NCBI GenBank assembly: GCA_009760855.2
Contig: WPIO01000001.1
Coordinates: forward strand, 7,001,001 to 7,065,000
DNA: 64,000 nt
From: Cristatella mucedo
Lineage: Eukaryota; Bryozoa; Phylactolaemata; Cristatellidae
Direction of reading: 5' to 3'
In this document: positions 1-57,335 of the stretch, piece after piece
Position numbering within the stretch: the first letter of the stretch is position 1
How the letters are laid out: each line of letters starts with the position of its first letter
Notes under the pieces: model-generated
Database searches by the model: none
Seen by the model: the letters and a program-made list of their open reading frames with translations, nothing else
Told to the model about the DNA's origin: nothing
Translations under genes and position numbers: made by a program

Positions 1-163
1 ACGTATGTGTAATTTGACCATATTTGCTTTTTTCCTATCCTATCGGTAGCCATCTAAAAAATGCGACCCGTGTATACTGTATTACTTACTATTAATATGT
101 AGTACTGTGTATGCATTCTTGGTGTCGCGTTTTCGGTCATCCAGCTTTGCTTGCCGTCCATAG

Positions 164-3064
164 GAGATTGTCGTTGGGAGCAACATGGACAAGATTTACC
201 TTGTGATGGACTTTGTTGAGCATGATCTCAAGAGTCTAATGGAGAATATGAAACAACCGTTCCTCGTTGGTAAGCTATGCATTCTGTCGCTTAGCCATAG
301 TATTATTAGGACACGGTTACTTCTGGAGAAAGCGATTCGTGTCCGATCGCCGTACGCCATATCTGAGATACTGTAATGATGTTTTAGGAGAGGTTAAGAC
401 TCTCTTGAAGCAGCTTCTTGCAGCTGTGGCTCATCTGCATGACAATTGGATACTGCATAGAGATTTGAAGACGTCCAATTTGCTGCTCAGCCATAAGGGC
501 ATTTTGAAAGTGAGTTTGGATGCTGGCGTTCCAATTCTCTCGGCAGCCATGCCACTAATGTGACATAATGAGTGGGTGAGGGAGTCAGTTTGAAGCATTT
601 TGTACAGTATGTTAGTGCTCACAACTGTGGCTGCTCTGGAAACCGGTGCGCAACCTTATCTTGAAATCGTAAACACGCCTATCTACAAAGTGTTTTATAG
701 ACAGTCTAATTAAAACTGGCAGCCTCTTTGTCCTATCGTTCACTGTATACTTCATCGTCTTTGCAGGTAGGAGACTTTGGGCTGGCTCGTGAATATGGCT
801 CGCCTCTGAAAGCATACACGCCCATCGTCGTTACACTGTGGTACCGAGCTCCAGAGCTCCTGCTGGGCTGCAAGTACTATTCGACACCAGTGGACATGTG
901 GTCTGTTGGCTGCATCTTTGCCGAATTTCTTAATATGAAGCCGCTGTGGCCTGGAAAGTCCGAGAATGACCAGCTCAATAAGATATTCCAGGTATAGGGG
1001 AACTGCTGTGGTTGCAGGAGCATTTTTGTCCATTAGTAAACGATGCAACGAGCTGATAACGCAACGGGTGCTTTTACCTCTATCATACTCGAAACATTGG
1101 TGTGCCACTTGCTCCCTCTCGCCCACCTGCTGGTCCATGGCAAAACCTGTATCTGAATGCTTTACATATCTTGTACATAATAGTAGATGCCTTTTGAGAG
1201 CTTCATTCAGCATCACTGCCTTACACTTGCAAGTGTTAATCCGACGATTGTGTTCTACTTCATTGGGGATCCCCTTATCTGGCTTACCGGCTACTTCATT
1301 ATTGTTGTTCTTAAGGACTTTTGGCTGTGTGAATCCATAGGTGGTAGCAATTGGGCTGCTGTGAATATTAAATGAAGTGTGTCTAATGCCTGTGACAAGC
1401 AGCACCCAATCTCTTTTGATTACCTGGTTCCCTCCCAGTATTAATAAGTTACTAAGGAGTAGGGTGCGACTGCAATAGCCTTCAGCTTCTAATGACAACA
1501 ACCGGTGGCTGGTGGCCTGGGAGCTTATCGTTGTAGCTCTCTGGCTGGGCTGCCATCGAAATGACTGGTGCTTTTTGCAGATCTTACATATTTGGTAGGC
1601 TGCTTGCTATACACTGGTATGCTATCTAATCTTAAATTGCCGGCAGTTTGGCTGGGCCTGTCAAGCTATGCTTGTTGAGCCTGTTCAGGCCTCCAAACTG
1701 TCAGCAACACCGTCAGTTGAGGCTCAAAAAGGGAGGAGGTGCCAGGTGGCTGCTAGGAAGGATCCAGACTTTTTTTGGCAAGGGGCCAGTCAGTAGACGT
1801 CCCTCGACGATCATATGTCAATAGTTCAAGGGCAATTGCTGAGGATCTTCCCAGAATAAATCATTAGATAAGGTTTACCGAACAGGTGGCACATCTTTGA
1901 AATACAAGGAATTCTGATTATTTACCGATTTTAATTTAAGGGATCTCCAAAAAGAAGTTAGTGACATCTTTCTTGATGATTGTAATGTTAGCAGACGTGT
2001 AATCTTGTTTGTTTAAATTCTGTGTCAGGAAGGGGAGTTGTCTGTAGTACCACTGACTATTCTACTGCAATCACTTACTATATTATATAAGTAGTTGCCA
2101 TGTGGTTTGTGCTGTAGTGCCTGCCTGCTAAAGTTATATAGAATGTTACTCTTCAACCGAGCCTGTAAATAGTAAGAGCTAACTTGCCACTTCTTCGTGG
2201 TTTTGCTTTTGACATCGTCTACATCGTTGTCTTTTCTCCTTATGCAAGAGAGGGTATGCCTGTGCCGACGTGGCACGACAACATTGGACTTATTAAGGTT
2301 TTGTGTAATACATAACATTCGGTGTGATTGTGGGGACCCCATTGCAGGAGGGTCTGTCAACCTCATAAAGGATAGGATTGTGGGGACCCTAGGATAATCG
2401 AAAGCTGTGGCCAGGTAGTGTGAGTGTTTCAGTATGGTTTTCTCCAAAAACTCTCCTTCCCTCTATCGAGGATGAAGAGCACTAGCACTTATTTTAACAT
2501 ATTAAAGGTAAATATCACTGCTTTAACTAGTCGGGAGCATAAACCAGCAGATGATTAAGAGTATTGTGTCGGGTTAGGTTAAGTAATCAAAGTTGCTCAG
2601 GTATCATTTCAAATATTCGTAAGCACCATCGGACAGTGGGCTTGAACTAAATGAATTTGCGAGAGAAAGAGGTAGAGAGAAAGAGAGAGAGAGGAGGAGG
2701 ATAAGTGACAGATTGCAAAAAGAGAGGGGGAAAGTAAAAAAAAAAAAAAGACTAGAGTTTGTTGGAGAGACAGATAAGAAGAGGGGGATGATCGTTTGCT
2801 GACAGGGAAAGTATCGTCGAGCCCATAAGAAGTAAAATATATTTAATAACATGGGCCATAGTGGCTTGCCTGCCAATCGCTGCATCACAGAGGAATGCGC
2901 ATCCGCCTGCTATGGATAAGCATTATTATCCCGGTGAAGGCTTGTAGCACCAAGAGAGATGCATAAGAACTGTGGGAGTTCCACAACTTAGGACTTACCG
3001 AGTGATATTTTTATGTTTTCAGTAATCTGTGGTCTTTAATTTAAAGAAATTGACACGTGATGCA

Positions 3065-3142
<78 letters not shown>

Positions 3143-6100
3143 TTATTTATTTATTTATTTATATTTATATATGCAATACTGGACCAATAACTTTGCACAC
3201 CCTGGTAATCAAACTGAATCTCCAGAGTTGCAGAGTTTTACCGAAAATCAAAGCCAAAAAATACCACCATTAACGATTGTAAAGCCTATTAGTTGTGCAA
3301 AACATGCCCAGCTGATTGCCATCGATTGCAAATGATTCTGCAAACTAACTTGTTTGACGGTGTGTTGCCTACGAGCACCAGGAGGCAGAAATTGCAATAA
3401 CTGGCTAGCTAGATATGAAGGAGCCAGGCTGCTGCAAGCCACGTCAGGGTAAGTGCTTTGGTTCTTATCTGCTCATTGTCCAGGAGCTATTGCCACTTCA
3501 TGGCTAGTTACTGAATGATCACTTGTGTGTAAGTCGACGATTTGCCATATGCCTTCTAATTTGAACTTGCTATTTTGGCCTAGCTAGTCTTAATTATAGC
3601 TTACATCGTTGACAAAGTCTTCGGCTCAAGTCGTCTTCTTTATTGGAACCTATGCCTTGGCATTGGCCATGAAACCTCAAACCAGCACAGTTAGGCATGA
3701 ACCAGATGCGTCTCTTGCTCACCCCTTGTACTCGAAAGATTTTCTTGTGGGCGTTTTATTGTGTTACAGAGGCCTTAATTGTGAGATACTGTTGGTAAAG
3801 TTGGTACGCTAGTTTATCTTTGGTATGCTGCAGTGATGGCAGTTCAGGTGCACGCCCGTGCTGCCCGACAGGCCATAAAAGAAAATGAAAAGACAGTTGT
3901 TGTGCATCATACGAGTTCTTTTACCCAGAAAACTAACCGTTTTATTTTGATCGATATTTGCTGTGGTAAGCCTATGCTCAGGCCTTGTACTGTTGTGCTT
4001 TAGGATTTGGGCTCGCCCAATGAAAACATCTGGCCGGGCGTTATGGAGCTACCAGTCATGAAAAAATGTACTTTTGCTTCACATCCTTACAACAACCTTC
4101 GTGCTCGCTTCACCAGCCTCTTGTCCAACAATGGTTATGATCTATTAAATAGGTACATGCACATATGCTGGGTCTTAATGTTCTCGCAATATTATCTCGC
4201 CCTTATTAAAAACAGCACAGTACATCCAGGCTGTTGTATAATTTTTGCTGCCGTTTTGCTAGGTTTCTTACTTACAACCCTGCAAAACGGATCAGTTCTG
4301 AGGAGGCCGCGAAGCACGACTACTTTAGGGAGTCACCACTGCCCATCGACCCTTCGATGTTTCCCACTTGGCCAGCAAAGAGTGAGCAGCCACGAAAGCG
4401 GGGCTCCACACCGAGACCACCGTCAGGTGGTGGTGCATATAAGCTGCTGGTGAGTGCTTCTCTTCAGCTGATGGACTCTGCACTGCAATGGGCATTTAAC
4501 GACTCCGTGGGGGCCAAAAAAGTGGTTTGTGGGTGGTGGGCAACGCCTCTTTGAGTTTCAGGATCTGTCCAATGTCGAGATGTCTCCCAATGAGCCTATC
4601 AGCCTTACAATTGTTTACACCACTTGGCACTAAATCAGTGGTTCTCAACCTGTCTAATGCCGCTACCCTTTAATACAGTTCCTCATATTATGGTGACCCC
4701 CAACCATAAAATTATTGTGTGCAAAATGTGGAAATGCATGTTTTCCGATGGTCTTAGGCGACCCCTATGAAAGGGTCGTTTCGACCCCTACAGGGGTCGC
4801 GACCCACAGGGTGAGAACAGCTGCACTAAATGGAAGTGATAATATATTGGCCCCATGTTTACTCTCCTTTTGTTTTTACATCCAGTCCTGTTAAATTTTC
4901 TGGAAGATAATCGAGTTGATGAAAAAAGTGTTCGGAGTTGCTGTCATCGACGTCAGCCGCCAAGAGCAACAGAAAATAAAGAGGGATGTGCTAATCTTGA
5001 CTCGGTGGACACAGCTCTGTCGTCTTTATGTGGGATGCCAGTATTGCAATAACTTTTGCCAAGTTAGTGGCACCATACTCAGCAATCTAGATTCTCTACT
5101 GGAATAACTTCTAGCCTGTTGTAGCAGAGGTTTCACGGTAGCATGAATGAATCCTTTTCTTCTTCTGCAAATGTTTGTTCAATAGGATTAGTCTCTACGG
5201 GCAGGCTTGCTAGACGTGAAAGTGTTTTTTGCTTGTTCGTGCCTTTTGCCAGTAACTAAAATGTCGTTAGTGCCAGATGTCTTGATAAAAAGCAGAGAGT
5301 AATCAAGGCCCAGGCATTCTGTTAACATAAACTACAAAGCTCGGTTAAGGATGTGTCAGCTGAGGATGCATCGTACTTAATGAGAATGCTATACAAATTG
5401 CTTACAAATGTCTTGTTATTTGCAAACCTCTGAATAGGCTCATTGCCCCTGCAGTTTGGAGGGGCCTAGCAGCCCAGGAAGCTAGTGCCTATCAAAGGAA
5501 ATTCTTCTCATTATATAGCTACCCACGAGCAGGGCTCTTAGCAAACCAATTCGTTCCCTACTTTGCCATTGATAAGACCTCTTTTGTGGAGGTGCTTCAG
5601 CCGGCCATTGATTGGTCTTAGAGCACTGGGTTTCGTGACGGGCCATCTCATTATAATGCCTTGCAGCGAAATATCCCACCGGCCTTCTAAATGTTGTTAA
5701 GAAAGTATGTGTCTAGCACAGGGGTCGGCAAACTTTTTGGACTACTGGGATGTTTCAGGGGGGTCAAGAAGGCACACTGGGCAAGAATGGGCGTGGCCGG
5801 ACGAACAAACAGTCACGCTTGGCAATTATAGGGGTAGACAGATATCATCCCTCCCCGGTCAGCACTTCTGTTTCATACAAGCGCCTGACATCAGTTCTAA
5901 AAATAAACACGGGCCGCAGCTTGAGCTGCAGCCAGCAGCAATGAAGGGGAGCAAAACTGTGACAATTCAATTAGGCAGGATCCAACAATAAATAAATAGG
6001 GGGCTTTATGTCGGACTAGAATACTAGCTAGGCCATATCTGGCCTTTAAGGTCGGAGTTTGCCGATCTCTGATCTAGCAGGTTTGTCCATATTAAGTTGC

Positions 6101-7677
6101 TTCTGCATGTTGTAGCACCTTGAGTTGCATTTGCTCCTGGTTCATACTTCGGCAAGTGCACGAGCTTGTGCAGCTGGCCAGGCTGCCTGCCTCTTTTTGT
6201 TTAGTAACCCTGGCACTTCACTTGCCTATGCTTTGATGATTCTGTCAGGCCACTCACTGTGCTAGCCGATCTGTGCTGCTAGCTGATCTGTGCCGTTTGC
6301 CTTCGCTCGACATTCATTCATAGCAGCTCAACGTAAGGCTAAACTCTTCCCCTTTAAATAAGCGTGGAATTTATTATGCTGACTAACTTATAATGGCTAT
6401 AGGTGGCAATTCTGCTGCCTGAAGTACTACGTTTGATGTTTTTTATGAATATGAGGCACAAAAACCCGTAGCCCTTTATTTTCTGAGTGGTCTCAAGAAC
6501 TCGGTTACTTGACCAAGCCTCTTTTATTTGTCTTGCTTCTGCTGGTGAGCAGTCAGCATACCAGTGAGCTCAGATAATGAAGCTGTAAGTTCTGGCTTCA
6601 TAAAAAAAAATGTTAAGGCAGCTCCCTCATACAGTTCGTCGTGTACAAGCATTCTTTCCACATTCATTGTGGGAGCCTGAGGGTATGTAGTACACTTAGC
6701 TTCTCGAGCAACCAGAACTACCTCATGTTGCAGTTTGATGGGCGTGGTAATAAAGCATACTATTTTGCTGGCTGAATAATGTTAACATACAAGTGAACCC
6801 CCTCCCTCTCCTGCTGTAACATCATATGAACTGCTGAGCTGACCTCCATTTCAAATAGTGTAAATTAATTGCAAACATAATACTATAATATAATTCATTT
6901 GTATAGTGCCGTAAGACACTTTAATCACTATTCAGGCTATTCGCATGTGCCACGGTGCTCGATCCCACGACATTGGTCATCAAATGTATTCACCATGACC
7001 TCGGTCGTTAAAAGACAAACACCTTAACCCCAGAGCCAAACCAGGGCAGCATGGGATTTAAGCATCACAGATGGCACAAATAGACTAGCTGCAGTCCTTT
7101 TTCTTAGGATTTCACTTTTAACTGCTACAGGGCCTTGAGCGTAATAGCTCACTAGTTGCTGCTTATCGTCTAATTAAACTTTAGAATTATTTGCCGTCAA
7201 TGGTATCCGAAGATTCAAGTATGTCATGTGGTTCCTGCCTTACAGTAATGCTCCTGCTGTTAGATCTCCAGACTTATGTAAAAAGGTAGTTGGTTGCATG
7301 TGTGGATCTTGAGATCTGCACTGTTGGTTCGTTGCTTTAGTTTGGTGAATAATGGTTCTTGTAAATGCTTTTACCTAGCTTTTAGGTTTTCTTAGCCAAG
7401 TGACAAATTCAATTCAATTATTGTTCAGATACTAATTTTGAGATACGATTCTGAATTTGTAGATGATTAGGAGTGGGTGGTCAGCGTTTTGTCACATGTT
7501 TTTACTACATTGCTGAACGTGGATCTCGTCTGCTTCATTCCATGTTAATTTACTTTTGCCTGTTTCGATTTTTAGGGTGATAATGATGACGAAGCCATGG
7601 CAAGTGCGGGATTCCACATGAGTGGGACTGCAAAGGGCGTATCTGCTGTCGGGCATGGGTTCAGCCTCCGATTCTAG
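164..7677 (+). CDS. CDK11: CDK11 (PITSLRE) protein kinase, 3' part of gene, six exons
   Basis: CDK11 is a cyclin-L-dependent nuclear Ser/Thr kinase linked to transcription and pre-mRNA splicing. Exons: 164-269, 388-509, 767-991, 4004-4152, 4263-4449 and 7576-7677 (stop TAG). All introns are GT..AG. The exons sum to 891 nt and stay in frame, giving 296 residues of the kinase C-terminal part; the glycine loop and beta3 lysine lie upstream of the window. Visible motifs by fragment residue: the hinge region near 10-22, HRDLKTSN with catalytic Asp61, DFG Asp79, T-loop Thr99 in [10 protein letters not shown], and APE Glu106. The C-terminus carries the family hallmarks [17 protein letters not shown] and a GFSLRF end. 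Start is an acceptor (cag/ag at 162-163), not a start codon. The last intron holds two hAT elements. The very close match to the CDK11 family makes other CDKs unlikely. Confidence 0.95.
3064..3161. repeat. Compound microsatellite (CT)n(AT)n(TTTA)n
   Basis: Three simple repeats run into one another: CT dinucleotides, then about 50 bases of AT, then TTTA/ATTT tetranucleotides. Confidence 0.95.
3300..3440 (-). repeat. Degraded LINE-A-like fragment
   Basis: The reverse strand reads [18 protein letters not shown], which resembles the LINE-A C-terminal segment [17 protein letters not shown] seen at 9.1 kb. It is short and diverged, so the call is tentative. Confidence 0.4.
4636..4823. mobile_element. 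SPIN-like non-autonomous hAT element with perfect 8-bp TSD
   Basis: The 188-bp element begins CAGTGGTTCTCAACCTG and ends CAGGGTGAGAACAGCTG, imperfect terminal inverted repeats. It is flanked on both sides by the 8-bp direct repeat CACTAAAT (4628-4635 and 4824-4831), the expected hAT duplication length. Internal motifs such as TTTCCGATGGTCTTAGGCGA and the GGGTCGCGACCC run match, from memory, non-autonomous SPIN (Space Invaders) hAT elements of tetrapods. It has no coding capacity and must have been moved by a transposase encoded elsewhere. It lies inside a CDK11 intron, clear of the splice sites. Confidence 0.85.
5719..6071. mobile_element. hAT-type MITE (Charlie-like ends)
   Basis: A 353-bp element with terminal inverted repeats: the left end reads CAGGGGTCGGCAAACT and the right end in reverse complement reads CAGAGATCGGCAAACT. 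Flanking 8-mers GTCTAGCA (5711-5718) and ATCTAGCA (6072-6079) differ at one base and fit an aged 8-bp duplication. No transposase frame is present. The ends resemble hAT-Charlie families, but I cannot name the family. Confidence 0.75.
6885..7040. repeat. Repeat D fragment, copy 1
   Basis: About 150 bases starting near ATTCATTTGTATAGTGCC and including a segment like TCATCAAATGTATTCACC. It is similar along its length to 45770-45930. The start resembles the stem of L2-type LINE 3' ends (GCGCC..ACTTTAATC), so it may be the tail of a third LINE family. Confidence 0.6.
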
Positions 7678-7797
7678 CTAAAACTAGTTAGGGTCGTTTA
7701 TTTGAACATTTGCATGTACTGTCACAGTTGCAATTTGAAGAAATATATTTCTTTATCGACTGCAGTCTTCAATTATTTTCACGTGGTTGTACTTGTA

Positions 7798-7900
7798 ATA
7801 ATAGTTATAAATAATAAAAAACCATTATAAAGCACTTAAAAAACTAAATTAATTTCTAGGCACTTTACATATGCTGGAAAGGTAACGTTTCAATTGATAA
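7798..7900 (-). mobile_element. LINE-B 3'-tail remnant
   Basis: Reads in reverse like the LINE-B terminus: AT-rich tail, then CTAGGCACTTTACATATGC as at the ends of the 14.2-kb and 55.8-kb copies. It lies 120 bp after the CDK11 stop codon. Confidence 0.55.
7813..7818 (+). promoter_or_regulatory. Candidate CDK11 polyadenylation signal
   Basis: AATAAA lies 136 bp after the CDK11 stop codon and is the first perfect hexamer on the + strand in that region. It sits within the LINE-B tail remnant, so the signal may be transposon-derived. No transcript evidence is available. Confidence 0.4.
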
Positions 7901-8695
7901 GGGCTAAACATTATCGCTTTATTTATACGTACAAACGATGCAAATAAAATACGAACGATTGATCGAGCTGCATGCACGCTAAGCTGATGCTGTTAAATGT
8001 ATCAATTTATTCATTTCCCCTACCTCACTCCATGCCAGCTTCATGATAGCTTACCAGTTACAGTTCATCTGACACCAGGAAAGCCCAGGTTTGCTTTATA
8101 GCTGTTGAGCTAGAAGCTGATTGCGGTCTTTAGAGCTTTGAACATGCTGCCCTCCATTCGAGTCACGGATACCAGTCATAGCTTGTGGCGACAGCCTGGC
8201 AAGCTCAGCCTTTTGAGGTGCTCAGACAGTGGAGGTTGACTGTAGGCCAGCTAGGATAAATGTCGGTCTCGTGGGTACTTAAAGCAGATGAAAACTATTA
8301 TTGATATTAGTTAACCGCATCCCTTACTGCATGTTTCTGGAAAATATATTTCGAGGAAACTATCCTGATGCATGCATAGCAAAATTGAATGAGTAGCTTC
8401 GGAAAGGGGTACTGCTAGGTGCTCTTGAAGCATCAGTTGTAACAAAGATATACAGTCGCCTCTGCTTATAAGAATACGCTCGCTCTGGTCGGCAAATAAG
8501 CATTCTTGTATGCTTTGGTATGTATCAAAGCACACAGAATGATTAATAAGAATAATAATGCTCTGGTTATTTTTAAGGGCTGCAATTCTCTGCTCGATGC
8601 GATTTTAAGATGTTTTTTCTCGATCTTATCTGCAATTGCATAGTACTCATTGTATTCTATAGTATTTTTGCTCCAAATATTTGCAAACAGTTTTC
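7901..8695. other. Intergenic stretch, nothing recognised
   Basis: Between the CDK11 3' end and a LINE-A copy. No conserved coding frame, RNA gene or repeat could be recognised. Confidence 0.6.
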
Positions 8696-8705
8696 AGCAC
8701 ATGTA

Positions 8706-9214
8706 TCTCCGTCTGTAACTCCACAAAGTCATAAAGACCATGTGGGTGTTACGCAGGAGAGTTTTGTATAGCACACTCACAGCCTAAGCGACTTTCGGTA
8801 CGCGTTCGGTAGCCAACGGACTCAGTCTCACGAAACAAAGAGAAAGTGGGAAGCCTAGCAGAGTCAGGAGAGCAGTTGAGGTAGTGAGTAGCATTGAGGT
8901 AGCAGCTCAGAACTGCTGATAAGGATGTGCCATAGTCGGCAATAGCAGAGTAGCTGTCGTTGCGTAAGAATTGTGGAAGCGAGTTCCACAGTCTAGGACC
9001 TGCAGAGCTAAAGCTTCTATTGCCAACGGTCTTTAAGCGGAGGAATGGAACAGCTATTTTATTGTCCATACGGGACCTGACGGTACAAAGAGGCTGAAAC
9101 TGGTGCAGCAGTTCAGCTAGGTACGAAGGAGCCAACCTGTGGCGGGCTTTATGGGTCAGTTTAAGAACTTTGCACTGTATTCGTTGCTCAACCGGCATCC
9201 ATCCTAGCTCTTTT
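8706..9214 (-). mobile_element. LINE-A, 5'-truncated 3' end, with 10-bp TSD
   Basis: The reverse strand encodes the end of a CR1/L2-like ORF2 (about 156 residues from LKELGWMPVEQRI through [15 protein letters not shown] to the stop), the thumb/C-terminal part after the RT catalytic domain. The direct repeat AGCACATGTA flanks it exactly (8696-8705 and 9215-9224), which defines a clean insertion. The frame is open, suggesting modest age. It is the reference for the other LINE-A 3' fragments in this window. Confidence 0.85.
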
Positions 9215-9289
9215 AGCACATGTAATGCATCTTCGCGTTACTCGGCATACCTCCAGCAACTGAATCTTCTCAAGCTTATCTGTGTCGTT

Positions 9290-15464: not shown

Positions 15465-17650
15465 AGATAAAATATACTGCAATATATTGGCTACAACAAA
15501 TTTTGCTGATTCATTTGACAATACCAATATATTGTATGGGATTATTTGACAATACAATATATTTGACACTACAGTTGTAATACATTAAGGTATCATTATA
15601 AACCTATTCGTCTCTGTCACATGATACATAATACATAAAAATACATAAATTGACTTTTCACAATTGAAAAGATTCAATTAAAATCATATCCGGACAGATA
15701 TCCGTATAAATCATTTTTAACCAATCCCAATTGTCCAAGTGCACAAACGTGGTGGCGCCATTTGTTTGTCTCAGAGGTCGCCGATTTTGATGTCGAGTTC
15801 AAGTTCTCGTCCTACAGTCCCACCTGACAATAAGAAGGTCTGTCAGCTTTACTTTGGCAAGAATCCTGTGGGTTCTGAAGTCAATACGTGGAAATGCACT
15901 TGTAGAGCTGTTCGCAAATAAAACATTGAGCTCGGCTAGATGAATTTGATATCCCACATCAAGCAGAAGCACCCGAATTATCTAGAAATGTTTCACTTGG
16001 CGATGCAAGCACACGGAGACGGCAAATCTGAAACTGTAAGTGTCATCGTCGGACCTGAACAATCATTATTTAGACAGACCGCCTTCGAGTGCTCGCTTGA
16101 TAGTCAATCAGCCAATGTATTCAAGTGGCTGGAATGGATCGTCGTGGATAAGCTCGAATTCATCTTTAGCGAAAAAGAGCTCACCTGAAGCAATCCGAAA
16201 CTGCATCCGATCTCTGTCAAAACATTCAAGAAATATATGGTCAAGCTGATGGAGGCGGTGAAAAAAAAAAGATATCTGTCAAGGTCGCTTCTGCTACCAC
16301 TTTCGCGCTTGTGCTTGATGGCTGGTCTGAGGATTCAACACACTTCATTGGTCTTTTTATCGTCTGCCCTGGCAGGGAGCGTGCTGCTGATCCTGAAATT
16401 CATCCGTTGGCCTTCGCCCCTCTATTTGACGAGACGAATTTTACTGCCGAGAACCGCGTGAATTTCATCAAATCGACACTTGAGTGGTACTCCTTGTCTC
16501 TTGACCCCCTTTTCTGTTTGATTGGGGGCAACTTCTCAACCAACAAGGCAACAGCCGACATTCTTGGTGTGCCACTTCTGGGATGCCGCAGTCACCGTTT
16601 TGATTTCGCTGCTGAGGCATACGTACGAACATGCCTCGCAACTGAATCGGAGTTGATTGGGAAGCTCATGACAAAGTTGTCAACACTCAAACAGTCAGGT
16701 CGATTTCGTTTGATGACATCCCTGCGCCCAGTCAAGCGAGACGTCGTTCGCTGGACAGGCGTTCCAGATATGTTTCAGCGCTTCGAAAGACTCCTTCCAA
16801 ATCTTGATGAGGCAGACGCTGAAATAATGGAACCTGTTCCCACAGCTGTGCAGAAAAAGAATATTTGGGATCGCAAGCAAGCATTGACCGATTTCAAATC
16901 CGTTACGATAGCGCTGCAGCGACGCGACATGTCAATGAAAGAATCGGATGTTTTATTCCGATCGACCATCGACTCAGATCCAGAGTTTGCCATCGATCAC
17001 TATCTTGGCAACGATGCATATATCATCCACAGCAAAGATTTGGATACGAGAATCGTCAAGATGCAAGCAAACAAGGCGAACACTCTTATACTTCATGAAG
17101 AACGTACTGTTGATCAATTGTTGCTACCTGCAGCTCAGCTGCAGATGATGGTGCTCAATTGTCTTTCGCTGAGCGAGCACTCAAGCGACAGCGTGCTGAA
17201 GAGAAGAAAGCATGCAGCGAGTACGTCAGCACGCGCTTCTTGCTGCCAGCATCGTGTGAGGCGGAGAGACTGTTCTCCACTGCAAAGCGAGCGTCCTGTC
17301 CTCGACGTCGTAGTTTACAATCGAGAACCTGCTGGAGGCAATGCTGCTTTTCTTTTTCTGAATCAAAACAAGTTACTGTAGAATTTCGCCCCGTCTGCCT
17401 TGATAGTGAATGAAGATTACTCAGAGAAAGCTGATGATTACGAAGAGAACGAAGAAGAACATGAAGAGGATTATTAAAATCGCAGACATAAATTGCAATA
17501 CGTGATGTGTAAGATGTGCAATATATTGCATTGGTGGCATAGAATATTGCAATATTCTGTATTTTTGGAATTTAATACCTCTCTATACATATTTTTTTTG
17601 CTGAATATCATCATATTGAATACAATTACAATATCATCGTGCGCAGCCTT
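15465..17650 (+). mobile_element. Degenerate autonomous-type hAT element
   Basis: The region around the transposase pseudogene. AT-rich flanks carry the palindrome CAATATATTG at 15480-15489 and 15525-15534 on the left and 17519-17528 on the right, consistent with subterminal repeats. Exact ends and target duplication could not be fixed, so both boundaries are approximate. Confidence 0.55.
15790..17381 (+). pseudogene. Broken hAT transposase with BED-type zinc finger
   Basis: Pieces in order: a BED-finger-like start (VCQLYFGKNP..WKCTCRAVRK, then MNLISHIKQKH), separated by two in-frame stops; a linker; a core starting near FALVLDGWSEDSTHFIGLF with LLGCRSHRFDF and LRPVKRDVVRWTG; and a C-terminal hAT dimerisation region (RFLLPASCEAERLFSTAKRA). 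The core is open for 356 codons (16311-17381). A frameshift in the A-run near 16261 and further shifts near 17150 and 17320 break the protein, so it cannot make active transposase. The wording of the core reminds me of hAT proteins common in oomycetes, a memory-based impression that a database search could test. Confidence 0.8.
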
Positions 17651-34386: not shown

Positions 34387-37300
34387 TCGACTATTGGTAC
34401 AGAATTGGCAGCACGACGAAGTTACCGGAGGAGACAAATCCGAATCCTGCTCAATGCACCACAATTTTCCACGGGCAAGCTGGCATCGCACTGCACCTCG
34501 TTACAGGTACTCCAGGGGTGTTCGGAGGTGTGCGTTGCACAAACCTTAAAGGCCGAACCGTTGAATGTCACCATCTGCAGGCTGATAAAAGTTAGCAGCA
34601 TGCACACACTGCACCCCTACTTCGAATGTGGTGACAGCAGAAGCGGCAATGTTTACTCACTCAACTGGAATGACAAATTAAAATAGAAGCTACATCACAC
34701 TCGAGCCCCTTAACGTTCTTCACCGATATGACAAGAATATAAGGCAGTGAAGCTGTCGTCTATCGGCCAGTGACTTTTTCGGATTGCAAAGTTGGAGTGT
34801 CAATGCTTGGTAGCAGACTGACTGCAGCAGTGCTGACAGCCGGCGGGAGCGCAGTGCAGTGGTCCAGTGTCATGGCTACCCCTTCATCTACAAGGGCAGA
34901 TTAGCTGGGATTATCCCGTTGCATTTACTCAGATAAAGACTGCATTAATTGGCAAGCTCGTGGGGGAGGCCCATTAGCGTGAGAAAGATGTATGTCTACA
35001 AACACCTAGAAAATGTGAGGAAAGGCACCTTCCATGTGAGTAAAGTACCAGACTGCTGTAAATACAAAAGGAGAAACAAAGTTATGTTTCTACATTTTGC
35101 TCACAACTGCAACACGTGATCTCACAATCTCTCCATCTCTCCTCAGCGTACATGTATGTATGCATGCCTGCCCGAATGCATGCGCACACATGCAATCTCC
35201 CATACAGCTCTCTTATTTTCGAAGGGGAGTTGTTCACAAATTCTTGGATATCCCTGATTCACCTAACACAGGTCGAGGGCAAACAGCAGAATGACTAAGG
35301 GTTTATAATCGATAAAGGTGCTCTAATTTTAGTACAGCACCAGGACTCGCGTGCAATGCGAGAGACTGCCAGACTATAACAATATCGTCATGGCTCTGAA
35401 AGATAAAGCCTTTAAAAATGGATCAAACGATATTTGAGGGAACATTTTGACTCTGGCCATCGTGCGCTAGTTTGACTGGCCATGCGAGCTTATTTACTGA
35501 TACACACATTCAGGTCATAGTGAGGTGTCCAAGGCTACATTGAATAGACAGGCCTATCGAAACGGTTTTAACAGCCGATTTATGTAGGAGGCGAGTAGCT
35601 CTGACCATCATACCAGGTCGGAGGCCCTCAGAGCAAAAGCTGGTCACCTCACAACCAACTCCCAACCCCCTAACCGACTACAGTCACGATATGACTGCCC
35701 GAAGTGACTGCTTTAAGCTGGCACCGGGCAGGGGGCCGACACAGCACAGAGCGGTCAGGCTATTTTAGGCTGCCAGGCCCAGCATACCTTCAAGCCCTGA
35801 TTTACACCAGTCACTCACACATGCACAGCAGCTGCAACCATGCTACCGATAATCCTGACGGATAGGTCCTCGGCAGGAATGGCCCCTCGGTCGGAACCGG
35901 AACATCGGGAGTGGTCTGCTCGGCTGCTGCCACTGCACCAGATGCAAGCCGAATTGCTAGGCTGTATGAACCGAACCGTCTCAAATAGTACATGCATTTC
36001 CTTCCTCGGGTTGGGCTGCCTTGGTGCTGCTCCGAGTGCCTAGTTAAGCATACATTAATGTAAATGTAATGTATGTAATGTATCTCCGTCAGTAACTCCA
36101 CAAAGTCATAAAGACCATGCGGGTGTTACGCAGGAGAGTTTTGTATAGCGCACTCGCAGTCTAAGCGGCTTTCGGTACGCATTCGGTAGCCAACAGACTT
36201 CGTCTCACGCAACAAAGAGAAAGTGGGAAGCAAAGCAGAGTCAGGAGAGCAGTTGAGGTAGTAAATAGCATGAAAGTAGCAGCTCAGGGCCGCTGAAAAG
36301 GATGTACCATAGTCGGCAGTTGGAGAGTAGTTGTCGTTGCGTAAGAATTGTGGAAGCGAGTTCCATAGTCTAGGACCTGCAGAGCTAAAGCTTCTGTCGC
36401 CAATTGTCTTTAAGCGGAGGAATGGGACAGCTAATTTATTGTCTACACAGGACCTGAGGGCGCGAACAGGCTGAAACTGATGCAGCAGTTCATTAGAGGC
36501 ATGCGCTCCCGGGAAATATGCCAGAGCGGCGGTCTCGTCCTAAGCAGGCCGTCTAATCCATAAGCTTACTACGGCCTGCCTACTAATAGTTCATTATTCA
36601 TTCAGCTGCTACTAAAAACGAACATATAAGTGGAATAGTTCAGAGCAGCCTGCAGACTCAGCCCTCCCCCTAATACTGCAGGGCCACCAGAAGAATGCCT
36701 ACTCCACAGAAAAAGCAGCACCTAGCTAACAGCTGACTGCCTACCATGAGAGCACTCACTTCGGTCGCACGCATGCACACAGACAGGCACCTGCACGCAC
36801 ACAAACACGTGCCGGAATCACATGCTACACAATTTGCTGCTAAGCCTGCAGACAATGTAATGTAATGTATCTCCGTCTGTAACTCCACAGAGTCATAAAG
36901 ACCATGTGGGTGTTACGCAGGAGCGTTTTGTATAGCACACTCACAGCCCAAGCGGCTTTCGGTATGCATTCGGTAGCCAACAGACTTCGTCTCACGCAAC
37001 AAAGAGAAAGTGGGAAGCATAGCAGAGTCAGGAGAGCAGTTGAGGTAGTGAGTAGCATGGAAGTAGCAGCTCTGAACCGCTGAAAAGGATGAGCCATAGT
37101 CGGCAGTAGTAGAGTAGAGTGGTTGTCATTGCAAATCCAGCCAGCATGACCTCATTTTCCCCCAAGTTGGTAACCGACGGTCGGCACATCACAGCAGGCT
37201 AGGCAAGCAGGCCAGAAAGAGCACAGTGTGGTGCATAAACACACGCACGCACACGCGAGGAAAGCCCCTCTGCTCTTGTCTTATAACCGCGCACTAAGAA

Positions 37301-39784
37301 ACCTTCAAGTGCTCGGTGTACCCTTGAGCCGAGATCGAGCAGACAACATGTTGGGCTACCGGCGGCCAAGCCCACACTGGGCAGAGAGCATTGGCATAGC
37401 CTTCAAAGGTTGACAGTGGCTAGAGAGGTCCAATCCACACATGTCAGCTGTATTACGTGTGGCCCTCATTTCATTGACATAACGGCCAAATCAAGTGACC
37501 ACACGCCAGCGCCCCCATTGCATACTGCAGCCGTGGCAATGCCACCCAACAATCACTTGTGCACACTTGCACAAGTACAACCTAAGCCGATCACAGCCGC
37601 AGACAAAGTGAAACAAAAACTCCCAGAAGCAAAATTGTTTTGCCGTAGGCCAACGACAAGTACACCAAGTTCCAAATCACGGTTGCTTTTTGTTTGCAGC
37701 AGCAACGTCAGTGGCAGCTGTGGCTGCATAACAATTTATGTCCATAGGGAGCAGACAGCTGCACTTAATAGCAACATGGCACACGAAACACTGTCAAAAC
37801 CGATTGTGCATTTCAAACTACCCAGAAGTGCATCACTTTTTGCTGGGCCCTCGAGACAAATTTTCTAATTGGTGATACTGAAGCATGACTGTCACCATGC
37901 GCTCGGAATTTAGGTATCCCCCTTTGACATCTTAAAGTTTGAAAGCTTCATTAAGAAGACTGCTTCCACAGCTAGCCATTACGTTCGATCCCTGTCAAAG
38001 ATTAGGGACTGTCTACTACATTTGCTTGCTAAAACTCTAGCTAGCTCCCTGATTCTAAGCTGGACTAATGTACTCCGTTTTGGCTGGGCTACCGAAAAAA
38101 AAGCCTTTAAGCCTACGGAGCTGGTGATGCATAACGCTGAACAGCTAGTAAATAAATCAAAGCTAGTAAACAAATCCCAGCTAGTAAACAAATCCCGGAG
38201 GTTAAACCACACAGGTGTCTCCTTTGCTGAAGGAGCTGCAATGGCTTCTGGTCGATCAAAGGATACAGAGCAAAATTCTTACTCTGACCCACTAAGCCTA
38301 CCGTGGCTTGGTTCTTTCATACCGAGCTGAACTGCTGCACCAGCTTCAGCCTCTCGTGCCCTGAAGTCCTCTATAGACAATAAATTAGCAGCTCTATTCT
38401 TCTGCTCCGTTCCTAAGATGGCATAATTTTTAAGCATCATCAACATCTGCTCTCCTGATGTGGGGCATTCTTTCCAGCCGCTCTAAGCTGCTACTTTCGT
38501 GCCACTGACATCATCGACGGCCCTGCCGACTCAGCCATGCTTCTGACTTTCTCTTGGTTGCACGAGATGAAGTCTGCTGGCTACCGAGTGCTCACCGAAA
38601 GCTGCTTAGGCTTTGAGTGCTGTAGAGAACTCTCCTGCCTAACACCCACTTAGTCTTCGTGGCTTTGCTCGTGAAGTAACTGACCGAGATGCACTGCACC
38701 TTGACCTTACTCCTTCATCTGCAGCCGATCGAGCGATCGTTTGCCACACGCCCGCCCGTGCTGCTAGTGGCCACGATCCAAACGGCACGGCACGTTGGTA
38801 CGTTGCGAGAAATGAAAAAACCGTTGCCAGCACGCTGCTGCTAGCAGGCAATATGTCTGCGTCAGCCTGCCCGGTGGAAAATGCCAAAATGGCTCAGCAC
38901 TCTACAGCAGGTAAGGACCGTCAAAGCAAGCTATGAGCACAAATATATAGAAAAAAACTAATCGCCACCGAGACTTGCACAGGACAGCCTTGTCAAACGT
39001 CACCACGAGCCAAATACGAGTCGGCCAGCCACTCAGCGCAGCTGATGAGAGAGCACGCGAGCACCTGGCTGGTCCATCCGAGCATTGCTGCTGCCTTCCG
39101 AAATTGGACTGGTGATGCGAAGGTACCCGTTGAAGCTTGGCAGGCCAACGGCAGACAGCCCTGAGAGCGATTCTGCTGGGTGCGATGGATTGACTCAGAC
39201 AAGGCACAGTCCATACTTGAGATCATTCGGCCTGCCTGTCAGTGGCTTGGCATTTAGTGTTTCATAAATCACGGATCGCTCGGAGGTTGCCAGTGGAGGC
39301 CAGCCGTGGTGCAGGCAGTATCTTGAGACTTACTGGAGGCTTTCTACTCGTGCCGTGCCTGGCACAATGTTCCGGAGAACTCAACAAAAAAAAGCTGGCT
39401 GTAGCCTGCCTGCTTTAAGTTGCTACTCAAAGAGACCAAGAATCGGTGGTGCAACACACGTGGCAGCTGTTTTGAAGTATGTCGACATGGGAGCCCAACC
39501 GTGGAAGTCAATGCTGCCACCCAATCTCGTCAACTACACAAGTCGCCAACTGATCCCACTAAGGATGGACCTCTGCTCAGGGGCAGTTTAGTGTGCTCTC
39601 AGCAAGGTAATGCAGAGCCTCGACGTGGCCATACTTGACCGCCGCTACCACTTACACAACCGTCTACAAGCTAAATGCTACATCCTTCAAGGGGAAACAA
39701 ATCATTACCCACAGAGCATAAGCAGGGACAACTGAGTTTCTGTATTCACAGATAGTACAAACGACACATACAGAGATGAAGGGA

Positions 39785-39861: not shown

Positions 39862-42800
39862 CTTACACACGGAAATCAGTCCTACGTCGTCTTGATGTAA
39901 CTGACCAGGGCACCTAAAAACTAAGACGCGCGCTCTAGATGTGGTTCTGGGTCTGTCCGTCTTGAAATCCTATAGTCTGCGCTCTTTTTTTTTTTAAGAA
40001 GATCCTTCTACCAGGTCTAAAAACTTCGGGCCGTTCCATTCGAGCAAAAGCAATCAACCGTACGTCAACGGCTATAAGCCACTAATATGCCCAACATGTT
40101 GTCGACGATATTTTGGACAAGTAACCGTTTGACAACTCGAGCCTCGTACATGATGAGCAATAAGTTCTCACTTTTGGCCAGTCATCGAGCAAAGGCAGGC
40201 ACAAGGAAGAGGTGCACAGCGCCATTGCACGGCAGAGGCAGCTAAATGCAAATGCTCCAATTAATCGATGGGGGGGAGCAACATTTTGCTCATTGTCAGA
40301 CCGAACATTGTTGATGCGATAATTTCTAAAAAACGCCAAGCTCGGGTGAGGCTTTTCGTTGGTAGCAGGATGAATTTCTGTTTGGTGGCCTAAATTGATG
40401 AGGCGGCTGGCGATGGTGCCATTGGACGAGTGAACAGACCAAAGAAAATAACAGCACCATGGTTGGTTGCGCTTGATTTCGTCACGCTTGCATTCCAGCC
40501 AATGTAATTCGGCATGATTAATCATGGAAAGCACCAGCTGACTGTGGGCTTGCAGGCCCTGTCGGCCATCACAGGCTGCACTCGGTTAGCCCGATAGCAT
40601 CGCTAGCGTGTGAGGGAAACGACTCGTTCATTCGATGCAGAGGAATGCAAAAATGATTCGGCCCCTGTCTCACAGGCTCATCAATAAACTTCAGCGATGC
40701 ACACGCCCGCCGAAGACTGCTCAAGCAGCTGGCGCTGAAGTAAATTACCGAGCGCTCGCACGTCGAGATGTGCCTAGCAAGCAAGCAACGAGAGGCCTTG
40801 TCGACTGGCTTTCCGGAGAACGACGCAGGCAATGCAAACAAACGCCGGGCGTAGGCTGAACGGCAACGGCCACACGAAGGCGCCTAGAGCGTGCAGCCGC
40901 AGATAGCCGTGCCGAAGGGGACGATTTGCGCAAGCAGCAGCAAACGAGTGACGAACCTGGCAGCCTCGAACTCGACAAACTCGCCGATTGAAATGCGAGG
41001 GCCATTCATATCGCACAGGCGTGCTTAAAGCAAAGTAAAAAAGTAAAAGAAAAGGCCAACTGAGTCAATAGCCTCATTGACATAGAGGCAGGCATATATA
41101 GAGCCTTAGTGGCTACCATCCTGCTTGCACATGGCAATGAGGGATGCCAGCTGCAGGACTCGAACCCGTGACCTGGCGGTTTGTGCATCCTATCTCTGTG
41201 CTACCGACATCTATGCTTTTCCAATGCACAAGTGCCATCCCAGATGGGCTATATGTAATGTAATGTAATGAATGTAACATATATCTGTCAACGAATGAGC
41301 AACGAATTGAGCAACGAATACAGTGCAAAGTTCTTAAACTGACCCATAAGGCCCGCCACAGGTTGGCTCCTTCGTACCTAGCTGAACTGCTGCACCAGTT
41401 TCAGCCTCTTTGTACCGTCAGGTCCCGTATGGACAATAAAATAGCTGTTCCATTCCTCTGCTTAAAGACCGTTGGCAATAGAAGCTTTAGCTCTGCAGGT
41501 CCTAGACTGTGGAACTCGCTTCCACAATTCTTACGCAACGACAGCTACTCTGCTATTGCCGACTATGGCACATCCTTATCAGCAGTTCTGAGCTGCTACC
41601 TCCATGCTACTCACTACCTCAACTGCTCTCCTGACTCTGCTAGGCTTCCCACTTTCTCTTTGTTTCGTGAGACAGAGTCTGTTGGCTACCGAACGCGTAC
41701 CGAAAGTCGCTTAGGCTGTGAGTGTGCTATATACAACTCTCCTTCGTAACACCCATATAGTCTTTATGGCTTGTGGAGTTCCAGACAGAGATACATTACA
41801 TTAAATTGCAGTAGTCCAGCCAAAACAGAACCAGGGAGCTAGCAGGCCACCGTGGTAGATAACCCCTAATCTTTGATACGGATCGAATGTGAGGGCTAGC
41901 TGTGGAGGCAGTCTTCTTAATACAACTTTCCAAATTTAAGCACCTACCAAAGAGGACACCTTAATTCCCAGCACATGGTGATGGTTGCACAACAGCATCA
42001 CCAATTAGAAGAAGAACGTCTCCTAGTCGAACCCCACACACACAGAATGTCCTATGAGTAAGAGCTCGGTTTTATTTCGGTTATGTTTGGCTGACATCTC
42101 GGATCGAATGTCTTCAAGGCAAGCATTCGGTTTATCAATCACTTCACCAGATTCCAACGGTTTAAAGACAGGCACAGCTGGGTATCGGCAGCATTGAAGT
42201 GACAGCCGATCCCATGGGCCAGCATCACTTTGTTCATGGGTTTGGTATAAATGGAGACCAGCTACGGAAAAAGAACAGACCCGTGTGGAACTCCACTGGT
42301 GACTTGTCTGCTGGATGTCTGCCGTGACTATCACACGACACGGATTGAACACGACCGGACAAGTACGATTTTTACTACACCAGCCCCTCGTCAGCAAGAC
42401 CGATCCCTGTTATCAATCAGTCAAGAAAAATATCGTGATCAATAGTGTCGAACGAAGCTGGTAGATCAAGCAGGGCCAGGGCAGCAATATTCTCCCATCG
42501 TTGCTACTTAAGATGTCGTTGATCACACGGTATAGAGCAGTTTTCATGGAGTGGTGTTTTTGCTTGATACCCGATGGAAATTTTTCTGACACGTCAATCT
42601 TTTCAATGTCCCATCTCGCCTGGGCATCACTGGCACTGCTCTGCAATGGTTCAGGTCCTATCTCAGTGGCAGACTCCAGAGTATTGACGTGAATGGAAAA
42701 AGATCATCCGAGGTACCTTTGAAATATGGGGTATCTCAGGGCTCCGTGCTAGGTCCGGTTCTTTTCATGGTTTATACTCTCCCTCTTGCTGATGTGATTG

Positions 42801-45688
42801 CCAAGCACAATCTAGGCTTTCACTTCTATGCGGATGACACTCAGTTGTACCTTTGCGTTCATCCATCCCAGCCTTCGAGCACCTCGAATTCTCTCAACTC
42901 ACTTGCTGCATGTATTGATGACATCCGCACATGGATGGCAGCACATTTTCTAAAACTAAACGATGATAAAACTAACTTACTAGTTATGGACAAACCCAGT
43001 GTGATTCAGAAATTGGAAAGACTTACGCTCAAAATTAGCTCTGCCAGCATATTTCCACTTGAATCAGCTCAAAATCTAGGTGTCATGTTCCAAAGTGACC
43101 TCTCGTTAGACGACCACATCAGCTCCACAGTCAAATCTTCCTACTTTCAGCTACATAACATTGCTAAAATTCGAGCTTGTTTAAATAAGGATACCACGTC
43201 TAAGTTGGTCCATGCATTTGTGACATTCCGCCTTAACTCCTGTTACTCACTGCTTGCTGGCCTACCGGCATGTGCAATCACGCGATTACATCTGGTGCAA
43301 AACTTTGGAGCTAGGCTTGTCTGTCGTGAGCGTCGCAGTTGCCACATCACACCACTTCTCGCCGACCTGCACTGGCTACCAGTCAAGCAACGGATCGACT
43401 TCAAGGTTTTGTCGCTCACTTTTATGTCACTTCATTCTTTGGCTCCAGCTTATCTCTCAGATCTACTCCCCCACCAGGCCTAGCATCGTACCACCTGCTT
43501 TTCGGAATCTAACAGTCTACCGATACCTCGTACAAACTTCAAATCCTTTGGAGACCGTGCATTTAGTTCGTATGCTCCCAAAGCCTGGAACTCCATCCCG
43601 ACTTGTGTCATAACATCCCCTGACTTGACCAAATCTAAAAGAACCTAAAAACACATCTATTTAGGACAGCATTAAGTGGGTCCCTGTGATTCGCCTTCAT
43701 GTGCTTATGCGCGCTGACACTGTGCATGCTGCCACTAACCACTTTGCATGCTGACCCTGTGCATGTCACCCCTAACCATGTTATTTATTTTGTTTGTTTT
43801 TCAAGCATGATTTTACTTACCATTTAATTGCATTTCCCATTGCAGCAAATGTAAAGCGCCTAGAAAGAGATCAAGTTCTCTGAGGGCACTTTATCAAGTA
43901 CATTATTATTATTATTAATCTTTTAAAAAATCTTTGAAAAAAGGAAGAAGGGAAACTGGGCAATAGTTTGCTAAGACCTCTGAATCAAATCCAGGCTTTT
44001 TAAGCATTGGTCGAGCGATGGCCTATTTGAAAGACTTTGGAACAACCCAATCATCCAGAAAAGCATTAAAACCTGGGTCATGACTGGACTAAGTTCGTCT
44101 GTGAAGACCAGAGACAGAATGGTATGGGGAATTCAATCAAGAGATGGGCTCTTTTTGTAGGCTTTATTAAGGTAGTTACTTCGTCCGAATGAACCTCAGA
44201 AAATCTCAAAAGGTCACAGGTCTCGACTTACTAACTGATTAGTTAGAGGGAACTCTATGGAGGCACGAATAAGTGCAACCTTTTTACTGGTGAAGGCTGA
44301 AAACTTGTCGGCCGAATTGTAATAGCAAGGGAGTGAGACCACACAGGGTTGTCAGGCAAATGATTTGCTCTAATAAATTTGTTTTAGATCTGACTGGCAG
44401 GACTCCGGTTTTTGAGTGACAAAAGAAACCTGGACTTTTCTAGGCTTCCAAGCGAAGACTCAATGGATGTTTCTTTTTAGTTTACTGCACCAATGAGGGT
44501 ATCGAGGCTGACAACAGAGTCTGGGTGCCGACTAAGAAGTCCTGCATCCCAGATTAAAAAAATTTCTAACCGTCAATGCTTTGTAAGTTGTGTCACTGGA
44601 AAAACTCGAAGCTACCCTGCACATAGCAAGGGAAATAAGAACGGTAAACGAAATGAATCCGAAATGATCCAGTCAGCAGGCACACAATGATCTCAGTGGG
44701 GCACACCTTGTGATCCCGAGATCTAGAACATGGCCACCAAAATGAGTTGTATGACAAACAAGTTGGACCAACCAGAGACTTTTCAGACAGTCAAGAAATG
44801 AGTGTATCTGACAGTTGCTAAGGTCGTCAATGGAAATATTAAAATCTCCAGTAATCAATAAAATCCTGTCACAATATTCTAGTAAGAACTCCAAAAACTC
44901 CATAAACAAGATTAGACAGCCAGAAGAAGGTGGGTCGGTGGACCACAACAGTGAGAGGCATGATCTTTGATGATAATCTGATAGCAACTGATTCAAATGA
45001 TGGCCAGTACAGAAAACTGCAGGTCTTACAGGTAAGCGAATCACGATTAATGACAGCAATGTCACACCACCCACCTTGTCAGGCCATATGGCCAGAAAGA
45101 ATAAGAACAGGGGGCGGGGGGGGGGGGGGGGGGGGGGGGGGGGTGGGAAGTCGGATATATGCAGCCACCAGAGCAGGGTGTCATCAATGTCTCGGTAAGC
45201 AGAAATGCATCGAGCTTCTCCTGGACAGCCTGATCGTGGATATTTAGCCCCTTTATTCTTAGCGGGGGGGGGGGGGGACATTTAACAAGCACAATATAAG
45301 AGGCTGTCCTATGCCTTTGGCCAGCCGATATGAAAGATCAGGGCTGCAAGCAAGTTCAGCATTTGTCAGCTGACTACAACTGCAGGCCCAGGTGGATCGT
45401 GCATTTAGTGGTGGCCTACTGCCCGTAAGGGAAGCTGGTGAAAACCACATCATTGAGCTCGAGTGTCAACTTTTTGTATCTATCAGCACGACAATTTTCA
45501 TAGGGTAGACTGTGTTTCTTTTCTTTCTTCCAATCTTTTGCGACTACGGAACATACCCAGGTCTTAACTGCCCAAGACCAAGTCACATTCTAGCGACTGC
45601 GTAGCTATACAAGCTTGCAGCATCTTACAGCCGTAGAGCTATGTGGACAGCAACTTTCGTGTTAGCGCTGAATGCTCTGTCTCTTGTG

Positions 45689-52025: not shown

Positions 52026-52320
52026 GCATATATGTAATGTAATGTAATTAATGTATCTCCGTCTGTAACTCCACAAAGTCATAAAGACCGCGTGGGTGTT
52101 ACGCAGGAGAGTTTTGTATAGCACACTCACAGCCTTAGCGGCTTTCGGTACGGATTCGGTAGCCAACAGAATTCGTCTCACGCTATGAAGAGACAGTGGG
52201 AAGCATAGCAGAGTCAGGAGAGCAGTTAAAGTAGTGAGTAGCATAGAAGTAGCAGCTCAGGACTGCTGAAAAGGATGTGCCATAGTCGGCGGTAAGAGAG
52301 TAGTTGTCGTTGCGTAAGAA
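52026..52320 (-). mobile_element. LINE-A short 3' fragment
   Basis: About 295 bp with a TGTAATGTAATG tail on the left, truncated at GTTGTCGTTGCGTAAGAA on the right. Lies inside the CpG-rich block. Confidence 0.85.
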
Positions 52321-54196: not shown

Positions 54197-54478
54197 TCGA
54201 TGTAATGCAATATAATGTATCTACGTCTGTAATTCCACAAAGTCATAAAGACCACGTAGGTGTTACGCAGGAGAGTTTTGTATAGCGCACTCACAGTCTA
54301 AGCGGCTTTCGGTACGAATTCGGTACCCAACAGACTTCGTCTCACGCAACAAAGAGAAAGTGGGAATCATAGCCGAGTCAGGAGAGCAGTTAAGGTAGTG
54401 AGTAGCATAGAAGTAGCAGCTCAGGACCGCTGAAAAGGATGTGCCATAGTCGGCAGTAGGGAGTAGTTGTCGTTGCAA
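54197..54478 (-). mobile_element. LINE-A short 3' fragment
   Basis: About 280 bp from a short tail (ATGTAATGCAATATAATG) to the truncation at GTTGTCGTTGC, as in the 36.9 and 52.0 kb copies. Confidence 0.85.
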
Positions 54479-54711
54479 TATCCTACACGCAGCGCTACTC
54501 TCAACAGCGTAGTAATCAAAATTACCAATAATTGCCAGCAAATTGTGGCTGATACTCCAGGTGAACTCCGACAGGCTCATTTATGAGATTGCAGCAAGCA
54601 GCTCACGCTCAGAGCTCTGACTCACCGACTGGCAGACTGTTACTCCAAGCGAGCGACTGAAATCAGGCTCGGGCCATATACAGTGGCCGGCTCGAAAGTC
54701 ATGCAATATAC

Positions 54712-55756: not shown

Positions 55757-57335
55757 ATAATAATAATAATAATAATGCACTTGATAAAGCGCCCTCAGAG
55801 AACTCAATCTCTTTCTAGGCGCTTTACATTTACTGCAAATGGAAACGCAACTGAATGGTGAGTAATATCATGCTTGATAAACAACATCAATAACATGGTT
55901 AGGGGTGGTATACACAGGGTCAGCATGCAAATGTGGTTAGTGGCAGCATGCACAGTGTCAGCACGCATAAGCACATGAAGACGAATCACAGGGACCCACT
56001 TAATGCTGTCCTAAATAGATGTGTTTGATGTTCTTTTAGATGTGGTCAAGTCAGGGGATGTTATGACACAAGTCGGGATGGAGTTCCAGGCTTTGGGAGC
56101 ATACGAACTAAATGCACGGTCTCCAAAGGATTTGAAGTTTGTACGAGGTATCGGTAGACTGTTAGATTCCGAAAAGCAGGTAGTACGATGCTTGGCCTGG
56201 TGGGGGAGTAGATCTGAGAGATAAGCTGGAGCCAAAGAATGAAGTGACATAAAAGTGAGCGACAAAACCTTGAAGTCGATCCGTTGCTTGACTGATAGCC
56301 AGTGCAGGTCGGCGAGAAGTGGTGTGATGTGGCAACTGCGACGCTCACGACAGACAAGCCTAGTTCCAAAGTTTTGCACCAGCTGTAATCGCGCGATTGC
56401 ACATGCCGGTAGGCCAGCAAGCAGTGAGTTACAGGAGTTAAGGCGGAATGTCACAAATGCATGGACCAACTTAGACGTGGTATCCTTATTTAAACAAGCT
56501 CGAATTTTAGCAATGTTATGTAGTTGAAAGTAGGAAGATTTGACTGTGGAGCTGATGTGGTCATCTAACGAGAGGTCACTTTGGAACATGACATCTAGAT
56601 TTTGAGCTGATTCAAGTGGAAATATGCTGGCAGAGCTAATTTTGAGCGTAAGCCTTTCCAATTTCTGAATCACACTGGGTTTGTCCATAACTAGTAAGTT
56701 AGTTTTATCATCGTTTAGTTTTAGAAAATGTGCTGCCATCCATGTGCGGATGTCATCAATACATGCAGCAAGTGAGTTGAGAGAATTCGAGGTGCTCGAA
56801 GGCTGGGAGGGATGAACGCAAAGGTACAACTGAGTGTCATCCGCATAGAAGTGAAAGCCTAGATTGTGCTTGGCAATCACATCAGCAAGAGGGAGAGTAT
56901 AAACCATGAAAAGAACCGGACCTAGCACGGAGCCCTGAGGTACCCCATATTTCAAAGGTACTTCGGATGATCTTTTTCCATTCACGTCAATACTCTGGAG
57001 TCTGCCACTGAGATAGGACCTGAACCATTGCAGAGCAGTGCCAGTGATGCCCAGGCGAGATGAGAGGCGCTCTAGAAGAACTTGGAGATCGATAGTATCA
57101 AAAGCGTCCGAAAGATCGAGCAAAACAAGCAGAGACACTCTACATATGTCTGCATTCCTGAGTAGGTCGTTGTACACCCTAAGCGATGCTGACTCTGTGG
57201 AGTGATTAGCTCTAAAGCCAGATTGGAACTTACTAGCAAGGTTTGAAGTTTCAATATATGAGTTCAGCTGGTCCGCCACGACCTGTTCCAGTGCCTTTGA
57301 TAGCAATGGTAGAAGGCAGACTGGGCGGTAGTTAC
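55757..57335 (-). mobile_element. LINE-B, youngest copy, open RT frame, TSD
   Basis: 1.58-kb reverse-strand insertion flanked by ATGCCTA (55750-55756 and 57336-57342). From 57306 to 56011 it encodes 431 residues without a stop: the RT start (upstream NYRPV, then LSKALEQVV), FQSGFRANHSTESASL, motif A LLDLSDAFDTIDL, motif [14 protein letters not shown], motif C YADDTQLY, motif [13 protein letters not shown], and the thumb ([24 protein letters not shown]). The N-terminal endonuclease is lost by 5' truncation, so it is not autonomous. The terminus is the shared GCGCCTAGAAAGAGA-type stem and an AAT tail. Confidence 0.92.

Follow-up and report, generated by a model that had tools for sequence, protein, structure and literature searches.

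A SPIN-like hAT element in a CDK11 intron of Cristatella mucedo, one copy of a dispersed family of gene-less elements

Background

Among cases of DNA passing between distant animals, SPIN serves as a model. It has been placed in the Buster family of hAT transposons, and a target duplication of the form nnnTAnnn has been given for TcBuster (PMC3499496). The painted turtle has 385 SPIN elements (PMC4054807). In invertebrates, the SPIN, OC1, hAT1 and ET elements of Rhodnius have been attributed to vertebrates (PMC11614815), and in the snail Biomphalaria glabrata a hAT present in about 1,000 copies shows significant identity to SPIN, in an assembly in which intact DNA-transposon transposases were not detected (PMC5440852); a lophotrochozoan host of SPIN therefore has a precedent. 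A further element, OC1 (OposCharlie1), has been described across phyla as 192-bp MITEs that derive from internally deleted autonomous copies, with average distances from the consensus of 2.2-10.5% among the table rows available (PMC3621081). A search of open-licence papers found no published account tied to the genome studied here, and no match was obtained in outside collections of viral contigs and genome contigs (one exact pattern per search for both), plasmids or phages.

The element in the CDK11 intron

Within the window, by which we mean the whole stretch of 64,000 nucleotides analysed, a SPIN-like non-autonomous hAT element (MITE) of 188 bp with CAG...CTG ends occupies positions 4636-4823 on the forward strand, between two perfect 8-bp target-site duplications, CACTAAAT, of the form nnnTAnnn, at 4628-4635 on the left and 4824-4831 on the right (neither assigned to a strand). 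The sequence-only reading, which had reported a 188-bp element with a perfect 8-bp duplication over 4628-4831, was thus exact, its span being the element plus both duplications. Flank identity extends to 9 bp if the G preceding the left copy is paired with the last G of the element; identical 8-bp flanks spaced around a 188-bp span are seen at 7 of 62,000 window positions. The terminal inverted repeats of this copy are 18 nt long and 83% complementary, the left arm (CAGTGGTTCTCAACCTGT) lying at 4636-4653 (+) and the right arm at 4806-4823 (-). Both internal words that had been named as SPIN-type are present, namely GGGTCGCGACCC and TTTCCGATGGTCTTAGG, the latter at 4742-4758, its sole match in the 64 kb when up to 3 mismatches are allowed (at least one such match arose in 8 of 100 shuffles). 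The window holds a single copy of the family, other blastn matches at E up to 10 covering just 11-36 nt, and scanning it for Rfam families and tRNAs found nothing.

The location in a CDK11 intron, also put forward by that reading, was confirmed by the translation of positions 767-991, whose best match is to CDK11B chains (E 2.8e-40), and by CDK11 exons that lie in order on either side of the element. Directly after the exon just upstream of it, at 4263-4449 (+), a gtgagt donor begins at 4450 (splice sites were assigned by eye), and the last exon, at 7576-7677 (+; start approximate), ends in GFSLRF and a stop, so that the host intron measures about 3.1 kb. Over positions 1-8000, where CDK11 lies, the CpG ratio is 0.58, versus 1.1-1.2 at 48-56 kb. 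Within CDK11 the element is a passenger of the intron and shows no sign of function.

Other repeats were seen in the window. A non-LTR retrotransposon is present twice, in opposite orientations, at 42609-43917 and 55761-57065, the copies being 96.6% identical over 1310 bp, and a reverse transcriptase domain was detected with Pfam at 56011-57339. Another repeat family is shared by seven sites (8701-9218, 36058-36492, 36853-37138, 38225-38693, 41307-41801, 52032-52320 and 54200-54483), which are mostly 86-97% identical, with 67-77% for the copy at 38 kb; they contain coding fragments and are probably retrotransposon 3' ends. An open frame of 403 aa at 16170-17381 looks transposase-like by eye and had no Pfam match at E 0.01.

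A dispersed family with Buster-type target sites

A search of the window's own genome (572.0 Mb in 688 contigs) with the window copy as query rendered 40 scored matches, including the window copy itself, which are the best 40 of 2198 first-look candidates and show 86-100% identity. By this genome search, which the sequence-only reading had left to be made, the element belongs to a dispersed gene-less family (MITE); to judge from the unscored candidates, the family probably numbers at least around a thousand copies. All 40 scored copies were aligned. They are 184-191 bp long, with a CAG start in 35, a CTG end in 38 and both in 33; the right end of one copy (L027) is disrupted. On contig C676 (2828045-2828503) two SPIN-like copies in opposite orientation lie about 90 bp apart.

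Flanks were compared with the ends fixed by the consensus, without shift. They were identical at 8/8 bases in 9 copies, 7/8 in 17, 6/8 in 6, 5/8 in 3, 3/8 in 2 and 2/8 in 3, so that 32/40 match at 6/8 or more and 26/40 at 7/8 or more, versus 10.1% and 1.8%, respectively, when the left flank of one copy was set against the right flank of another. The preferred insertion site in the 40 copies is roughly nnCTARAn. Flank position 4 is T in 35/40 copies on the left and 34/40 on the right, and position 5 is A in 37/40 on the left and 34/40 on the right; both flanks carry TA at these two positions in 26/40 copies, and at least one flank does so in 38/40. The family thus has the features by which the hAT superfamily is recognised, namely short inverted repeats at its termini and target-site duplications of 8 bp, and its nnnTAnnn duplications are the signature of the Buster branch.

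Seven CGACCC words are spread across both subterminal regions of the consensus, versus a mean of 0.15 in Markov controls, none of which reached 7 (0/5000). Since any 6-mer at all attained 7 copies in 22/2000 controls, the excess looks less striking once the choice of word is left free. Subterminal repeats have been described for Buster1 (PMC4298943). The CGACCC words of the present family are probably transposase-binding repeats. The window copy retains five of the seven, in a CGACCC/GGGTCG cluster at 4759-4805 (element positions 124-170, no strand assigned); both left-side words have been lost, so the CDK11 copy would probably be immobile.

Divergence and age of the burst

The majority consensus of the 40 copies is 187 bp long. 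Divergence from it averages 5.5% (4.5% outside CpG) and ranges from 3.2 to 8.6%, an estimate biased low since the sample consists of the copies closest to the window copy, which itself differs by 6.4% substitutions and one 1-bp insertion. Mean pairwise divergence is 10.1%, versus 11.05% for twice the distance to the consensus; such near equality indicates a star-like spread, as expected from one burst. A second base occurs in at least 6 copies at 9 columns, 7 of them at CpG positions. When the consensus was used as query, the best 41 of 2336 candidates were scored, 40 of them at 94-96% identity and one at 85%; none of these scored copies lies within 3% of the consensus, and therefore the burst seems to be over. 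With an assumed neutral rate of 2-5 substitutions per billion sites per year, and with the biased sample, 4.5% corresponds to roughly 9-22 million years. The relatively recent arrival proposed for the element is upheld only in the sense that the family is younger than the split of its host lineages; the 40 best copies scored stand at 94-96% identity to the consensus, with a star-like spread and a burst that seems finished.

Resemblance of the ends to SPIN

The mammalian SPIN/URR1-type ends used for comparison are presumed ones, set down after the window copy had been seen and before the consensus was built. With these ends as we take them to be, the consensus agrees at 84/84 and 80/81 positions, and the window copy at 79/84 with one gap and at 76/81. 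At each of the window copy's ten mismatches and at its gap, the consensus carries the presumed SPIN/URR1 letter. The consensus departs from the presumed letters at position 59 only, where 25 copies have C and 14 have T; there the presumed letter is that of the minority and of the window copy. Agreement with such presumed ends offers a lead rather than a test. The central 24 bp or so of the element presumably differs from the mouse form.

Primers printed in the literature provide a more independent check than the presumed ends. Relative to the consensus, the Kcnq1ot1 reverse primer printed in PMC6221546 matches at 19/20 positions and the two primers printed for the mouse Ate1 locus in PMC2767504 match at 18/20 each. 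The highest values reached by these three primers in 500 consensus shuffles each were 15, 14 and 15. We take the Kcnq1ot1 primer to be from mouse because of the gene naming, and we assume all three primers to be located in copies of URR1, itself taken to be SPIN. The sequence comparisons, in which the SPIN ends are presumed rather than drawn from a database, make the SPIN reading well supported: a SPIN-type hAT, as had been suggested from the window alone, is what the nnnTAnnn duplications, the agreement with the presumed ends and the primers from mouse papers all point to.

Search for an autonomous partner

No full-length SPIN transposase, sought in the assembly as the sequence-only reading had advised, came to light, there being no SPIN ends at any of 45 hAT loci examined with flanks of 1.5-3 kb, namely 30 of 138 scored matches to PF05699 and 15 of 46 scored matches of PF14291 type. 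At E up to 10, matches between the PF14291-type loci and the consensus were just 11-21 nt long, no better than chance. The PF05699 loci were rejected as the autonomous partner, being a very young and different hAT without SPIN ends. That family (loci L061-L090, e.g. L066:1-2204) has some copies with open frames of 635-642 aa, and its 29 other loci are 98.96-99.89% identical to L066 over the longest aligned stretch; it is possibly still active. Loci L103-L105 were likewise rejected, as another hAT of 2.7 kb with ends CAGGGGTGTCCAACC...GTTGGACACCCCTG; L104 and L105 are 94.6-94.8% identical to L103, and the open frames are of 472-563 aa.

The host

The mitochondrial contig of the assembly (C688; 21,008 bp) carries a COX1 with in-frame TGA, in which AGA/AGG codons fall at serine positions, and ATA codons at methionine positions, that we take to be conserved; this is the usage of invertebrate code 5. 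This code excludes vertebrates, tunicates, echinoderms and flatworms and is compatible with amphioxus, nematodes and arthropods. The genome gave no match to Chitin_bind_4 (0 candidates), which argues against an arthropod, although it does not prove absence. With genes named by reading frames, the block nad1-nad6-cob-(T)-nad4L-nad4-nad5 lies on one strand, with T opposite, an order that resembles that of chitons and phoronids and from which a lophotrochozoan host is likely. A tick host, suggested at first by gene content, was set aside in view of this gene order and of the missing match to the arthropod cuticle domain. The same contig contains a 2115-bp repetition that includes part of nad3, with tRNA predictions recurring at that spacing. 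COX1-like fragments elsewhere (C166:4375626-4376390, C83, C549 and C299) are probably nuclear mitochondrial insertions. Telomere repeats of the types tried were absent from twenty 3-kb contig ends.

Origin of the family

Taken as a whole, the locus is with high probability a fossil copy of a SPIN-type MITE of the Buster branch of hAT that arose after horizontal transfer and one burst. An autonomous SPIN-like transposon would have entered this invertebrate lineage by horizontal transfer, and an internally deleted version that kept both ends and the CGACCC subterminal words would have been mobilised in trans by its transposase. This MITE would then have spread in one burst, of which the star-like pattern is seen, by cut-and-paste into nnnTAnnn sites with the observed 8-bp duplications left behind; after the end of the burst the copies decayed, with many changes at CpG, as seen on the scored copies. 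Against this account must be counted the 8/40 copies whose flanks match at 5/8 bases or fewer.

It could also be the case, though we hold it to be unlikely, that the family is a different Buster-branch hAT (OC1/OposCharlie, say, or a relative without a name) with conserved ends that are merely SPIN-like. The matches to the mouse-paper primers and to the presumed SPIN/URR1 ends extend through the subterminal regions, which speaks for SPIN itself. On the other hand, different Buster families share conserved ends of about 106 bp, TGGGTCGCG repeats occur in Buster1 too (PMC4298943), and Rhodnius carries SPIN, OC1 and hAT1 together (PMC11614815); yet the terminal repeats given for Buster1 and Buster2, e.g. 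CAGGGCTTCTTAAAC and CAGGGGTGGCCAACCT, are unlike CAGTGGTTCTCAACC (PMC4298943). Vertebrate DNA in the assembly, an idea that draws on SPIN being best known from tetrapods, is scarcely credible for a copy in a CDK11 intron within a 24.8-Mb contig, with further copies spread over many contigs and mostly bounded by target duplications of their own, and a mitochondrial contig that is invertebrate; the contaminant sequence envisaged by the sequence-only reading as grounds for its dismissal thus finds no support.

That an invertebrate family should so resemble mouse-type SPIN favours horizontal transfer. If an ancient animal family had instead been retained in this lineage without horizontal transfer, its neutral non-coding DNA would have diverged over protostome-deuterostome time. 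The copies are only about 5.5% from their consensus, yet this consensus matches the presumed mouse-type ends at 84/84 and 80/81 positions, and we consider such vertical descent very improbable.

Comparison with known systems

What is new here is a characterised SPIN-like family in a further host, horizontal transfer itself being a known kind of event. We tentatively propose, giving it somewhat less than an even chance, that SPIN invaded a lophotrochozoan lineage not previously recorded as a host, with no evident link to blood feeding, and produced very many MITEs in one burst with no detectable full-length transposon. If true, vertebrate-type SPIN would pass between phyla by a wider set of routes. 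Another invertebrate host, with a burst that can be dated and near mouse-type ends, provides data on the routes, dates and vectors of transfer.

The family resembles the non-autonomous SPIN elements of tetrapods and the URR1-type copies of mouse in its near-identical ends (with respect to a presumed consensus), its 8-bp nnnTAnnn duplications and its short gene-less form; it differs in that its carrier is an invertebrate whose mitochondrion uses code 5. By description, it is like SPIN_NA of Rhodnius prolixus in being SPIN in an invertebrate (PMC11614815), and the present genome differs in its lack of a match to the arthropod cuticle domain, which is not proof of absence. Likewise by description only, the family can be likened to the OC1 MITEs in size, proposed origin and divergence (PMC3621081), and to the SPIN-like hAT of Biomphalaria glabrata (PMC5440852).
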